Shown here: positions 23,442 through 27,935 of the stretch, piece after piece
Layout: every line of letters begins with the position of its first letter
How positions within the stretch are numbered: position 1 is the first letter of the stretch
Source: Thermodesulfovibrio sp. 3907-1M
GTDB lineage: Bacteria > Nitrospirota > Thermodesulfovibrionia > Thermodesulfovibrionales > Thermodesulfovibrionaceae
Assembly: GCF_040450955.1 (NCBI RefSeq)
Contig: NZ_CP144373.1
Location: 62,001-126,000 of the forward strand
Direction of reading: 5' to 3'
DNA: 64,000 nucleotides
The notes under the pieces: generated by a model
Seen by the model: the letters and a program-made list of their open reading frames with translations, nothing else
Told to the model about the DNA's origin: nothing
The model's database searches: none
Position numbers and translations under genes: made by a program

Positions 23442-23489
23442 GAGATTCCTCGCTTCGCTCGGAATGACAATTTTTCTGTCATCCTGAGG
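23442..23489. repeat. REP-like inverted repeat pair
   Basis: GAGATTCCTCG, CTTCG, CTCGGAATGACA is followed after 7 bases by TGTCATCCTGAGG, an inverted partial copy. The structure resembles paired REP units. It lies in the 202-base gap between the GNAT and DsbA-like genes, which shows nothing else clear. Confidence 0.75.
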
Positions 23490-23578
23490 CAGAGCAGTGT
23501 TTCCTCGTTGGTGAAGATGTAGGTAAATATGGGCTTGCAAGTTTTTGAACAGACTATTGAATATTAAGGAGAAAAAAT

Positions 23579-24181
23579 ATGAAAATTATTAAACAGCTTT
23601 TGTTTGTTTTGTTAGGTTTGTCTCTCTTATCCAGTGCCTTTGCAGCTGAAAAAAGATACAGTTTGCCTCTGGAAAACTCACCTTATATTGGATATGAGAA
23701 TGCGCCCGTTACCATTGTTGAATTTATTGACTATCAATGACCGCATTGTATTGAGGTTGGTCCGACCATTGAAGGATTGGTTAAAGAGTTTAAAGGAAAG
23801 GTAAAACTTGTGATTAAGTTTTTCCCATATCGCTACAGAGACTATTCAAGAATTGCAGCAGAGGCAGCAGTTGAAGCATGGAAACAGGGCAAGTTTGCTG
23901 AAATGCATGAGTTATTAATAAAAAGATCTCCAAAGCTTGACAGGGAATCTTTAATAGCTTACGCAAAAGAGCTCAATCTTGATATTGAAAAATTTGTAAA
24001 GGCAATAGACAATCAAGAAGGTGCTTCAATAATTGAAAGAGATTTGAAACTCGCCAATGAGATGGAACTTTACGTAACTCCTGCTTTTTATATCAATGGA
24101 GTAAAAATTCTTGGAGTAAGAGACTATGATTATTTCAGGGAAATTATTTTACAGGAACTTAAAAGTGCTACTAAAAAATAG
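23579..24181 (+). CDS. DsbA-like thioredoxin-fold protein with in-frame TGA at the first active-site Cys (candidate selenoprotein)
   Basis: From the ATG at 23579, preceded by AAGGAG, the frame encodes a signal peptide (about 1-23). DsbA/DsbG-like strands follow, ending VEFIDYQ, then TGA (codon 54, bases 23738-23740) and PHC. Relatives have CPHC there, so the product would be U-P-H-C. The rest is intact for 146 codons and includes the cis-Pro loop VTPAFYING near 165. Reading from a later internal ATG (23777) would lose the active site. Periplasmic thiol oxidation or isomerisation is the family role. It overlaps the peroxidase gene by 17 bases. The alternative is a nonsense mutation, which would have to have hit the catalytic codon. 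Confidence 0.75.
23755..23767 (+). promoter_or_regulatory. SECIS-like hairpin after the in-frame TGA
   Basis: GGTTG pairs with CGACC (one G-T wobble) around a GTC loop. The loop starts 19 bases after the TGA, within the range reported for bacterial SECIS elements, and its first base is G. The sequence resembles the upper stem-loop of the fdhF SECIS, but the stem is short. Confidence 0.5.
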
Positions 24182-25253
24182 CATTATTTACTTTCTCTGC
24201 GTTATTTTTGTTTTCTTTATCTATTTCCATATTGACAGCTTTGCCTCTGACAAAAAGAAAAAACAACTTGAATCGCTACCTCCTGTGCCTGTTCCAAAAG
24301 ACAATCCACAGACTACAGAGAAAATTGAGCTCGGTAAAAAGCTTTTCTTTGACCGAAGACTTTCAGGAGATGGAACTACAAGCTGTGCCAATTGCCATGA
24401 TCCTGAAAAAGCATTTACCGATGGTTCTGAAATATCTCTCAGTTACCCAACAACAAGAAACTTCAGAAATGCACCAACTTTGATGAATGTAGCCTATGCA
24501 AAGTATCTTTTCTGGGACGGAAGGGCAAAGACTCTTGAAGAACAGGCAGAATTTCCAATTATGTCAGCTTTTGAAATGAACCAGAATCTTGATTTTTTAG
24601 AGGAAGAAATAAGAATTGTTCCCGAATACAGAGAAGCCTTTAAGAGAGTTTTTGGCAAAGATGTAAATATAAAACTTATTGCAAAAGCAATTGCAGCCTT
24701 TGAAAGAACTCTGATATCCAGAAATGCACCAATTGACCGTTATCTAAGGGGAGATGAAAATGCATTGAGCCCAGAAGCTAAAAAAGGACTTGAAATCTTT
24801 ACAGGAAAAGGAAAATGTATAGAATGTCATTATGGAGCTTATCTCAGTGATCAGGAATTTCATGCGCTGGAGGTTCCAGAAAATCCAAAATATGTTAATG
24901 AGCCAAAGTTCATAACCACAAGGCGTTATGTGGCTAAAATTAATAAATATCCAGACTACATGAATGTGAAAGAAGACCTTGGAAGATACTTTAAAACGAA
25001 GAAAAGAAAGGATTACAAAGCTTTTAGAACTCCTACCTTAAGAGAAGTTGCAAAAACTGCACCCTATATGCATAATGGTATATTTAAGAGCCTTGAGGAG
25101 GTAATTGATTTCTTTAATAAAGGCGGAGGAAAGGGGAATAAGTTGTTGAAACCCCTTAATTTAACCGATTATGAAAAGAAAGCACTTAAAACCTTTCTTG
25201 TGGAAGCTTTATCTGGTGATGATTTACATATAAAACCACCAGAAATTCCATAA
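24165..25253 (+). CDS. Dihaem cytochrome c peroxidase (CcpA/MauG family)
   Basis: The GTG at 24165, with AGGA upstream, is preferred over the ATG at 24126, because the shorter form begins directly with a signal or anchor helix (VLLKNSIIYFLCVIFVF). Two haem sites are seen, SCANCH near residue 75 and CIECH near 220. Family marks include LGKKLFFDRRLS, LFWDGRAKTLEEQA and APYMHNGIFKSLEEV. The family reduces hydrogen peroxide with electrons from periplasmic cytochrome c. Its gene overlaps the DsbA-like candidate selenoprotein, which suggests a joint oxidative-stress or redox function. Confidence 0.9.
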   Translation: MLLKNSIIYFLCVIFVFFIYFHIDSFASDKKKKQLESLPPVPVPKDNPQTTEKIELGKKLFFDRRLSGDGTTSCANCHDPEKAFTDGSEISLSYPTTRNFRNAPTLMNVAYAKYLFWDGRAKTLEEQAEFPIMSAFEMNQNLDFLEEEIRIVPEYREAFKRVFGKDVNIKLIAKAIAAFERTLISRNAPIDRYLRGDENALSPEAKKGLEIFTGKGKCIECHYGAYLSDQEFHALEVPENPKYVNEPKFITTRRYVAKINKYPDYMNVKEDLGRYFKTKKRKDYKAFRTPTLREVAKTAPYMHNGIFKSLEEVIDFFNKGGGKGNKLLKPLNLTDYEKKALKTFLVEALSGDDLHIKPPEIP

Positions 25254-25266
25254 ACATGGAGGATAC

Positions 25267-26004
25267 ATGAAAATAGAAGAACTAATAAGAGAAAAGCCAC
25301 ATCTGCAAAGCCCTCTTGAATTTTATCAAAAGATAAAAAATTTAACCGAGCAATGCAAAAAGGACAAAGAAGTGCTAAAGCTTGACAGCGGGACTTCAGT
25401 GATAGATATTGTTCTTAAAAACTTCTCATCGGTTTTTCAGATTCCCTATGAATCAATTTCATTTTTGAAAGATGAAATTTTAAAAAGCGGAAAAAATCCT
25501 TTAAAAGAGCCTGCAACCCTTTGGTCTCTTCAGCTTCATAGTGAAGAGCTTTCAAAGGAAGACATTCAAAGAATGCTTTTCATTTTGAGTAAACCCTTTT
25601 TTGTCTTTTTAAGAAAAGAAGGCGAGCAGGTATCTTTTATGGATACAGGAAAATGCCCAGTTTGTGGAACAGATTCATCCCTTGCAATGATTACAGAGAA
25701 TAATGAAAAAATAATGATATGTCCACTTTGTGAGCATGGAGGAAGCTTTTTCAGAATTGGATGTCCCTATTGTTTTAATAAAGATTCAACCAGAATAGAA
25801 ATTCTTCTTGATGACGAGGAAATAAGAGCTGAACTCTGTCTTGAGTGTAATACTTACATAAAAAGCTTTAAAGAAAATCACTATATAAAGTACAGAGATC
25901 CCTTTTTGATTGACATAGTCAGTTTACCTCTTGATATAGTTGTGCAGAAGCGAGGCTACATAAGGCGTTCTCCAAATTTCATTGGATTGAGAATAATTGA
26001 ATAA
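25267..26004 (+). CDS. fdhE: FdhE-like formate dehydrogenase accessory protein
   Basis: The 245-residue protein has an alpha-helical N-terminal half and a C-terminal zinc/iron region with four CxxC pairs: CPVC near 130, CPLC near 153, CPYC near 167 and CLEC near 190. This is the FdhE layout. FdhE helps mature the Mo/W-bis-pterin formate dehydrogenase. No formate dehydrogenase gene is in the window. It overlaps moeA by one base, which ties it to cofactor metabolism. Formate dehydrogenases are often selenoproteins, so it is consistent with, but does not prove, selenocysteine use. Confidence 0.8.
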   Translation: MKIEELIREKPHLQSPLEFYQKIKNLTEQCKKDKEVLKLDSGTSVIDIVLKNFSSVFQIPYESISFLKDEILKSGKNPLKEPATLWSLQLHSEELSKEDIQRMLFILSKPFFVFLRKEGEQVSFMDTGKCPVCGTDSSLAMITENNEKIMICPLCEHGGSFFRIGCPYCFNKDSTRIEILLDDEEIRAELCLECNTYIKSFKENHYIKYRDPFLIDIVSLPLDIVVQKRGYIRRSPNFIGLRIIE

Positions 26005-27935
26005 TGAGGAAAAAGGTTTTTCACGAGCTTTTATCGCTTGAGGAAGCAAAGGAAATACTGTTTAATGCTTTTAAAGAAAGGCGCTGTCTTCCCATTGATG
26101 TAGAAACCATCTCTGTTAAATCTGCTTTAGGAAGAGTCACGGCAGAGCCGGTTTTTGCCAGATTTTCTTCACCATATTTTCATTCTGCTGCAATGGATGG
26201 ATATGCTGTTAAAGCTCGCGATACCTTCTCTGCAACTGAGAGAGAACCAGTAAGGCTCAAAATTGGTGTTGATGCTCACTGGATTGAAACAGGAGACCCA
26301 CTTCCAGAGGATTTTGATGCTGTAATACCAGTGGAAGATGTCAGTATAAAGGATGGATACATAGAGATTTATGCTTCTGTGCCTCCTTACAATGATGTAA
26401 GACCTATTGGAGAAGATATTGTTGCGACAGAGTTAATTATTCCGGAAAGTCATGTTGTGCGCGCTGTTGATATTGGAGCAATGCTTGCAAGCGGAATAAC
26501 AGAGATAAAAGTACGAAGGAAGCCTGTTATTGGAATCATTCCAACAGGTTCAGAACTAATTGATGCTGAAACAATTAAAGAGAGAATGCCAAATCCTCCT
26601 GAGCTTATAGAGTATAATTCAGCAGTTCTTGGTAGTCTTGTAAATGAGCTGGGAGCTGAAGCTAAAATTTATTCAGTGATTCCAGATGAAGAAAATAAGA
26701 TAAAGAATGCAATTTTGAATGCTTTAAAGGAGTGTCACATTGTTTTATTGAATGCTGGTTCTGGATACGGAAAAGAAGATTTTACTTATAAAGTAATCAA
26801 TGAACTCGGTGAGGTTATTATAAATGGTGTTGCCATAAAACCTGGTAAACCCTTTATTGCAGGATTTATTAGAGAGAAAGCTGTTTTAGGAATACCCGGT
26901 TATCCTGTATCAGCCTTTTTATGCTTTGACCTTTTTGTTAAACCTTTGATAGAGCTTTATCTTGGTGTATCAACAAAAAAACAAGAACAACTTAAGGCAT
27001 TACTTTCAAGACAGATATCATCAAGCATAGGGGTTGATGAATTCGTTAGAGTGAAGGTGGGTAGGGTAGGAGAAAACTACATTGTAACTCCAATGGGAAG
27101 AGGTGCTGGACTTTTAATGAGCGTTGTGAGAGCTGATGGATATGTTGTTGTTCCCAGAGGCTCAGAAGGATTCTCTCAGGGTTCTGAGGTACCAGTGTAT
27201 TTATGGCGCAGCAAAGAGGAGATTAACAATACCGTAGTCTGCATTGGCAGTCATGACAATACTCTTGATGTTTTATATAACTTTTTAAGAAAAAGATTTC
27301 CCCATGTAACTCTTTCCTCTGCTCATGTTGGTTCAATGGGTGGTCTTGTTGCGATTAAAAAAGGTGAAGCACACATTGCCGGGACTCATCTTCTTGATGA
27401 AGCAACCGGGGAGTATAATGTGCCTTTTATAAAAAAGCTTTTGCCAGAGAAAAAAGTTGTTCTCATCAATCTTGTTTATAGAATTCAGGGTTTTATTGTT
27501 AAAAAAGGCAATCCAAAAAACATTAAAGGATTTGAAGATCTTACTCGTGAAGATGTAGTTTTCATAAACAGACAGGCTGGCTCAGGAACAAGACTTCTTC
27601 TTGATAAACATTTAAAAGAGCTCGGAATTTCCCCTGATACTGTTAAAGGTTATGATAGAGATGAATACACTCATATGGCAGTAGCTTCAGCAGTGCTTAC
27701 AGGAAGAGCTGATGTGGGATTGGGAATTCTCTCTGCTGCAGAGGCATTGAGACTTGATTTTATTCCTGTTACTGAAGAAAGATACGATATTTTGATTCCT
27801 CAGGACTTTCTTGAATTGCCAATAATTCAGGCAGTTTTAAAAGTCATAGGGGAAGACGAAGAGTTTAAAAAAGCAGTAAGCTTACTTGGTGGATATGATA
27901 TTCGTGATATGGGAAAAATAATTTATTCTAATTAA
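26004..27935 (+). CDS. moeA: MoeA-PBP fusion: molybdopterin molybdotransferase with C-terminal substrate-binding-like domain
   Basis: Residues about 1-405 are MoeA. They include SPYFHSAAMDGYAVKA near 55, the IPTGSEL motif near 178, NAGSGYGKEDF near 250 and KPGKPFIAG near 280. Residues about 415-630 are a periplasmic-binding-protein-like domain (PF12727 type) with SVHVGSMGG-like and INRQAGSGTRLLLD elements. MoeA inserts molybdate or tungstate into adenylylated molybdopterin. The extra domain is common in archaea and some anaerobes and may bind the oxyanion or sense the cofactor. It would serve AOR-type and formate dehydrogenase-type enzymes. The 3' end overlaps the convergent gene by 4 bases. 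Confidence 0.9.
   Translation: MRKKVFHELLSLEEAKEILFNAFKERRCLPIDVETISVKSALGRVTAEPVFARFSSPYFHSAAMDGYAVKARDTFSATEREPVRLKIGVDAHWIETGDPLPEDFDAVIPVEDVSIKDGYIEIYASVPPYNDVRPIGEDIVATELIIPESHVVRAVDIGAMLASGITEIKVRRKPVIGIIPTGSELIDAETIKERMPNPPELIEYNSAVLGSLVNELGAEAKIYSVIPDEENKIKNAILNALKECHIVLLNAGSGYGKEDFTYKVINELGEVIINGVAIKPGKPFIAGFIREKAVLGIPGYPVSAFLCFDLFVKPLIELYLGVSTKKQEQLKALLSRQISSSIGVDEFVRVKVGRVGENYIVTPMGRGAGLLMSVVRADGYVVVPRGSEGFSQGSEVPVYLWRSKEEINNTVVCIGSHDNTLDVLYNFLRKRFPHVTLSSAHVGSMGGLVAIKKGEAHIAGTHLLDEATGEYNVPFIKKLLPEKKVVLINLVYRIQGFIVKKGNPKNIKGFEDLTREDVVFINRQAGSGTRLLLDKHLKELGISPDTVKGYDRDEYTHMAVASAVLTGRADVGLGILSAAEALRLDFIPVTEERYDILIPQDFLELPIIQAVLKVIGEDEEFKKAVSLLGGYDIRDMGKIIYSN

Follow-up and report, generated by a model that had tools for sequence, protein, structure and literature searches.

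A selenocysteine-containing DsbA-like protein of Thermodesulfovibrio and its conserved pairing with a di-heme peroxidase gene

In Thermodesulfovibrio sp. 3907-1M, a gene interrupted by an in-frame TGA almost certainly encodes a predicted exported, DsbA/BdbD-like oxidoreductase whose putative attacking residue, Sec54, would be incorporated at UGA with the help of SelB, tRNA-Sec and a short hairpin. The gene and that of a di-heme peroxidase just downstream very probably form a conserved two-gene unit. For the reading as a whole, in which the observation is real and a selenocysteine gene stands in a conserved pairing, we estimate a probability of about 0.93. DsbA-like selenoproteins are already known and have been listed since 2005 (PMC1088965, PMC1794560, PMC5029168, PMC13188914), among others in a Sargasso Sea set (PMC1088965), in a bacterial survey (PMC1794560) and as 'form 1' in a review (PMC13188914); the tie to a peroxidase and to formate dehydrogenase is the newer part. 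In the portions of these accounts drawn on here, such proteins are sporadic (4 in 2006, 45 in 41 organisms in 2016), whereas the clade described below extends over many families of one phylum, has Sec throughout and is tied to a peroxidase. A 2006 survey of thiol-redox selenoproteins reports conversions of Cys to Sec as well as of Sec to Cys in such families (PMC1794560). The same portions of the literature mention neither a formate dehydrogenase nor a peroxidase as partner, a distinction drawn from published descriptions. Our search of mainly openly accessible literature returned no report of a DsbA-like selenoprotein associated with a peroxidase and formate dehydrogenase, and an earlier mention is possible.

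The gene lies in a stretch of 64,000 nt that was analyzed in full (the window; GCF_040450955.1, NZ_CP144373.1, positions 62,001-126,000). Its parts are as follows, in window coordinates:

23566..23571, forward strand: Shine-Dalgarno-like AAGGAG, 7 nt 5' of the ATG, read directly
23579..24181, forward strand: DsbA/BdbD-like thiol oxidoreductase with selenocysteine, predicted exported, UPHC active site, 200 aa
23738..23740, forward strand: TGA codon 54, interpreted as selenocysteine; TGA in 68 of 68 distinct orthologous genes
23747..23749, forward strand: TGT, resolving Cys57 of UxxC; Cys in 68 of 68
24080..24082, forward strand: codon of cis-Pro168, near the active site in the thioredoxin fold; P168 invariant in the divergent alignment

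A sequence-only reading of the window had described one frame with a signal peptide and a thioredoxin fold that is broken only by a TGA at codon 54, is intact on either side of it and keeps the cis-Pro loop. The sequence bears out this description. Positions 23579-24181 of the forward strand form a single 200-residue frame whose sole internal stop, as read from the window, is the TGA that takes the place of the first Cys in a CPHC active site (context FIDYQ-U-PHC), with in-frame sequence intact both before and after it. The Pfam domains agree with the proposed fold (Thioredoxin_4, E=1.1e-25; DSBA, E=1.5e-15), the cis-Pro is present as T167-P168, and the N-terminus, MKIIKQLLFVLLGLSLLSSAFA followed by AE, resembles a signal peptide as judged by eye. 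Also as predicted, the standard list of open reading frames holds only 23777..24181 from a TTG start, in which the active site is missing. Since ordinary gene calling drops the active site in this way, members of the entire clade probably appear in annotations as short fragments. A six-frame scan of the 64-kb window for frames with at least 35 codons before a TGA and at least 60 after it, and not mostly covered by another ORF, returned the selenoprotein gene as the only TGA-interrupted frame. In the gap 5' of the gene, window positions 23446-23468 hold a palindrome-like sequence, TTCCTCGCTTCGCTCGGAATGAC, which resembles a dispersed repeat and has a single copy in the window.

The predicted structure assigns the protein to the DsbA group. 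An AlphaFold2 model built from an 11-sequence alignment reached a pLDDT of 90.9, and its best Foldseek matches were BdbD (TM 0.78/0.84, 31% identity) and other DsbA-like proteins, in agreement with phmmer. The DsbA-type thioredoxin fold, the UxxC motif and the cis-Pro that characterize DsbA-like selenoproteins are all found here, and the published members (PF01323, UxxC), as far as the cited portions describe them, likewise combine this fold with Sec as the first residue of UxxC and a SECIS just 3' of it. BdbD of Bacillus subtilis (3eu3) and related DsbA proteins share the fold and the placement of the active site, but BdbD has the first Cys where the window protein has Sec, and no BdbC/DsbB/VKOR partner was found in this genome. 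No NCBIfam model reaches its cut-off for this Sec-only clade. The best match, NF041057 (Rcas_1661 family thioredoxin-like (seleno)lipoprotein, 'DsbG-like'), likewise describes a thioredoxin-like selenoprotein, but with 76.6 bits against a cut-off of 190 the window protein falls far below it and is not a member; loci L017, L110 and L111 score 60.8, 79.4 and 85.4 bits against the same model.

We searched 61 relatives and 396 genomes of the same phylum for orthologues, defined as matches above 190 bits. Orthologues occur in 64 of the 396 genomes at 47-100% identity, and every one has TGA at the active-site position; Cys at the position of codon 54 was found in none of the orthologues above 190 bits among the 396 phylum genomes. 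Matches within the phylum separate into two sets, those above 190 bits, all with TGA, and those below 131 bits, which are distant proteins with either Cys or TGA. The fetched loci gave 71 orthologous hits that correspond to 68 distinct genes, all of which have TGA in column 54 and Cys in column 57, and the selenoprotein is present in 28 of the 61 relatives. An alignment of homologues, proposed with the sequence-only reading as a check for Cys or TGA, thus yields TGA in all orthologues and Cys codons, at the same alignment column, in more distant homologues. In the tree, the orthologues form one supported clade (97/89), separate from the homologues with Cys as well as from a second Sec group.

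This second group of TGA-containing DsbA-like proteins carries UPYC, measures about 280-320 aa (L112, L113, L114, L066, L119, L121, L122), branches separately and passes no NCBIfam cut-off. After the TGA it has a conserved hairpin-like sequence of its own, CGGCTTGAGCCG and variants, and genome G111 holds two copies about 3 kb apart (L112 2218-3066 and 5335-6246). A lone divergent TGA homologue (L111 2471-3058, genome G213; RUPYC, 39% identity) belongs clearly to neither Sec clade. One selenoprotein gene (L067, genome G057) is split by a frame change past the active site, possibly through decay or an assembly error, in a genome that lacks the peroxidase partner.

The machinery for selenocysteine insertion, another point that the sequence-only reading had proposed for a check, is encoded in the genome (1.94 Mb, one contig, 99.99% complete). 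We found selA (621 bits), a full-length selB of 623 aa (396 bits), selD (386 bits) and a tRNA-Sec with anticodon TCA, for which a single copy is claimed; the other matches to the tRNA-Sec model were assigned by ARAGORN to tRNA-Cys and tRNA-Ser and set aside. The selD gene (C1:1257371-1258291 of the genome) has an in-frame TGA near its N-terminus (GUAAKIGPG) and encodes a selenoprotein SelD. The features expected of a bacterial selenoprotein, an in-frame TGA aligned to a redox Cys together with selA, selB, selD and tRNA-Sec, are therefore present. Across the phylum, 61 of the 64 genomes with an orthologue have selB, versus 172 of 396 overall; the three orthologue-bearing genomes without a selB match are drafts of 94-96% completeness.

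A short way 3' of the TGA, the window contains a candidate signal for recoding:

23755..23767, forward strand: SECIS-like hairpin, 5-bp stem GGTTG/CGACC, loop GTC; supported by a synonymous-codon shuffle test and pair counts

The bacterial SECIS has been defined as a stem-loop just 3' of UGA with a small apical loop that contains G (PMC1088965), and the hairpin has this form. It begins 14 nt 3' of the TGA, as the sequence-only reading had noted, with the loop GTC at +20 to +22, and G29 is invariant in the alignment. All five stem pairs are possible in 52 of the 68 genes, compared with 8.1 +/- 2.8 (largest value 17) in 300 draws in which codons were redrawn by each gene's own usage with the protein unchanged; the remaining 16 genes have stems of 4 or 3 pairs. 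Silent positions hardly vary in codons +5 to +9 after the TGA but do so freely elsewhere in the gene: the Gly codon GGT is used in 65 of 67 cases in the element versus 16% in the rest of the gene, and the Pro codon CCG in 66 of 68 versus 34%. Compensatory changes in the 67-sequence alignment (UA/CG at one pair, GC/UA/CG/AU at another) accompany 90% paired cells in the hairpin register, versus at most 58% for slid partners. A register slid by +3 also shows 58% paired cells and, because of codon periodicity, a similar number of two-sided changes. The hairpin is thus conserved at the RNA level, beyond the protein code.

Folding of isolated sequences contributes little to this result. The hairpin is not favored in every sequence, and in the window's own 45 nt folded alone it is not the minimum-energy structure (z = -0.48), so single-sequence energies were not used as evidence and the support is comparative. 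The mean MFE z-score over synonymous shuffles is modest at -1.1, and the pairing count carries the weight. On the ribosome, the first dozen nt after the UGA are held in the channel, which removes competing pairings.

These data bear on two other accounts of the TGA. A broken gene or a sequencing error, in which TGA replaces TGC or TGT and the protein is truncated, would look identical if one genome alone had TGA at the Cys position. The TGA is, however, common to 64 independent genomes, which excludes an error at 23738-23740, an outcome named beforehand as fatal to the selenocysteine reading. Both flanks are intact across proteins of 47-100% identity, and the codons 3' of the TGA are under selection at the RNA level; we consider this account extremely improbable. 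Decoding of UGA as Trp or Cys, through a changed code or suppression, is also very improbable, if marginally less so. Recoding of UGA to Trp occurs in other bacteria, but the full Sec machinery and a SECIS-like element are present here, TGA serves as an ordinary stop in neighboring genes of relatives, the site is that of a catalytic Cys, and the orthologues track selB. On the grounds of conservation and Sec machinery, we rejected a sequencing error, a pseudogene and an altered code. Three findings uphold the proposal that the TGA is read as Sec: the machinery is encoded, no orthologue departs from TGA, and the adjoining RNA element shows selection over and above that on the encoded amino acids.

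Downstream of the selenoprotein gene, three further genes follow:

24126..25253, forward strand: di-heme cytochrome c peroxidase, CCP/MauG family, start provisional; two CxxCH; overlaps the end of the selenoprotein gene
25267..26004, forward strand: FdhE-like formate dehydrogenase accessory protein; Pfam FdhE_C above cut-off
26004..27935, forward strand: MoeA-type molybdopterin biosynthesis protein; NF011068 777 bits, above cut-off

The first of these products belongs to the PF03150 superfamily, with a CCP_MauG domain (185.3 bits, cut-off 25.6) and two CxxCH motifs, CANCH and CIECH, which contain all of the exactly four cysteines found past the signal or anchor. It shares the domain with bacterial di-heme cytochrome c peroxidases as well as with MauG and MbnH, and is nearer to the peroxidases than to MauG: its best PDB match is 2c1u (E 7e-49), and it stays below the cut-offs for MauG (TIGR03791, 237.7 of 443.85) and MbnH (TIGR04039, 231.5 of 362.85).

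In nearly all loci, and in 40 of 41 wider contexts, the peroxidase gene lies directly downstream of the selenoprotein gene on the same strand. Both genes occur in exactly the same 28 of the 61 relatives; of the 396 phylum genomes, 61 have both, 3 the selenoprotein only, 2 the peroxidase only and 330 neither. We give these counts without p-values, since shared ancestry inflates their significance. Among the five exceptions, three (G307, G097, G281) are located at the end of a contig. The other two, G365 and G229, are the genomes that have the selenoprotein without an intact adjoining peroxidase: G365 has a C-terminal fragment of the peroxidase beside the selenoprotein, and G229 (L128/L164) has two tandem selenoprotein copies behind fdhABC, one with UTHC instead of UPHC, and no adjoining peroxidase. 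In genome G008 (L040 1495-3201), selenoprotein and peroxidase are joined in a single 559-aa frame and separated there by a hydrophobic stretch; this fusion was set aside as proof of interaction, as the genome is a draft and an assembly indel is possible.

The wider surroundings point to formate dehydrogenase. FdhE is a neighbor in 15 of 41 contexts and MoeA in 10 of 41, less constantly than the peroxidase, and the FdhE-like gene of the window scores 51.1 of the 187.65 bits required by TIGR01562. In Thermodesulfovibrio, FdhE and MoeA come after the pair; no FdhA is encoded within the 64-kb window, and formate dehydrogenase is not beside the pair in this genus. Outside the genus, 32 of 36 loci have fdhA-fdhB upstream of the pair and on its strand, all but one of them within ~5 kb. 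A cytochrome b subunit is often present as well, and the peroxidase can be followed by FdhE and MoeA. The FdhA next to the pair has the Sec motif HQARIUHS and in most cases an RR export motif, and its nearest solved relatives are the FdhA proteins of D. gigas and D. vulgaris (1h0h/6sdr; 1260-1290 bits). In the wider family, the two-gene unit thus probably belongs to the operon of a periplasmic, Sec-containing formate dehydrogenase of the D. vulgaris type.

A surface disulfide of D. vulgaris FdhA, C845-C872, has been described as a switch through which the enzyme passes from an O2-protected to an active state and back (PMC11323313, PMC11134731, PMC13397495). In the FdhA of locus L139, the residues aligned with C845, C872 and M405 are C884, C918 and M421, and both switch cysteines are present in 25 of 25 FdhA sequences. 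FdhA beside the pair therefore shares Sec and both switch cysteines with D. vulgaris (Nitratidesulfovibrio) FdhAB, for which the cited portions of the literature name no dedicated thiol partner, whereas a candidate is encoded next door here. As the FdhA proteins of D. vulgaris and D. gigas carry the same two cysteines, these may not depend on the selenoprotein gene.

The peroxidase pairing behind a Sec formate dehydrogenase suggests that the pair protects or switches this enzyme. More specifically, the pair may be a dedicated module for redox control and peroxide protection of periplasmic formate dehydrogenase, a proposal to which we assign slightly less than an even chance. The selenoprotein would act as a dedicated thiol-disulfide partner of the enzyme and reduce or form surface disulfides of FdhA, such as a switch equivalent to C845-C872, with selenium conferring speed and resistance to over-oxidation. 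The peroxidase would clear H2O2 at the site of formate dehydrogenase. The latter role fits the report, as far as its cited portion goes, that one form of oxidative inactivation of a formate dehydrogenase can be averted by superoxide dismutase and catalase (PMC13397495). Alternatively, the peroxidase might stand in for the missing DsbB/VKOR by exchanging electrons with the selenoprotein. The boldest version, a Sec-only DsbA clade dedicated to operating the formate dehydrogenase switch with a private peroxidase as electron partner replacing DsbB/VKOR, would amount to a previously undescribed thiol-cytochrome-peroxide relay, and we regard it as unlikely.

Two other functions compete with the formate dehydrogenase module. 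The protein could serve as the cell's general oxidase for periplasmic disulfides, an ordinary DsbA except for its Sec, and its link to formate dehydrogenase would then reflect only shared regulation or a shared need for selenium. In favor of such a role, no second Thioredoxin_4 protein was found in the genome, the closest fold, BdbD, is that of a general oxidase, and FdhA is not beside the pair in the window's genus. Yet only 28 of 61 relatives have the gene, with many of the same order lacking it, which would be odd for a housekeeping function, and the pairing with one peroxidase is nearly strict. Recycling is a further difficulty: the 99.99% complete genome gave no match to DsbB and none to VKOR in a search that was positive in control genomes, and thus lacks the membrane re-oxidase of the canonical DsbA-DsbB or DsbA-VKOR pathway. 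We consider a general oxidase rather unlikely. Doubtful, too, is a maturation factor that, like CcmG or ResA, would keep the CxxCH cysteines of the adjoining peroxidase reduced or ordered for heme attachment. The strict neighborhood, the confinement of the mature peroxidase's four cysteines to its two CxxCH motifs and the genome with both proteins in one 559-aa frame would suit this role, but in such bacteria numerous other cytochromes of the c type mature with no dedicated partner, and the similarity of the selenoprotein is to DsbA/BdbD, not to ResA/CcmG.

The clade described here is an example of a thioredoxin-fold family in which Sec is the sole form across many families within a single phylum. 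The cited portions of the literature on the FdhA disulfide switch name no physiological partner, and the pairing of selenoprotein and peroxidase, together with the formate dehydrogenase operon, provides a concrete candidate for what sets this switch in the cell.
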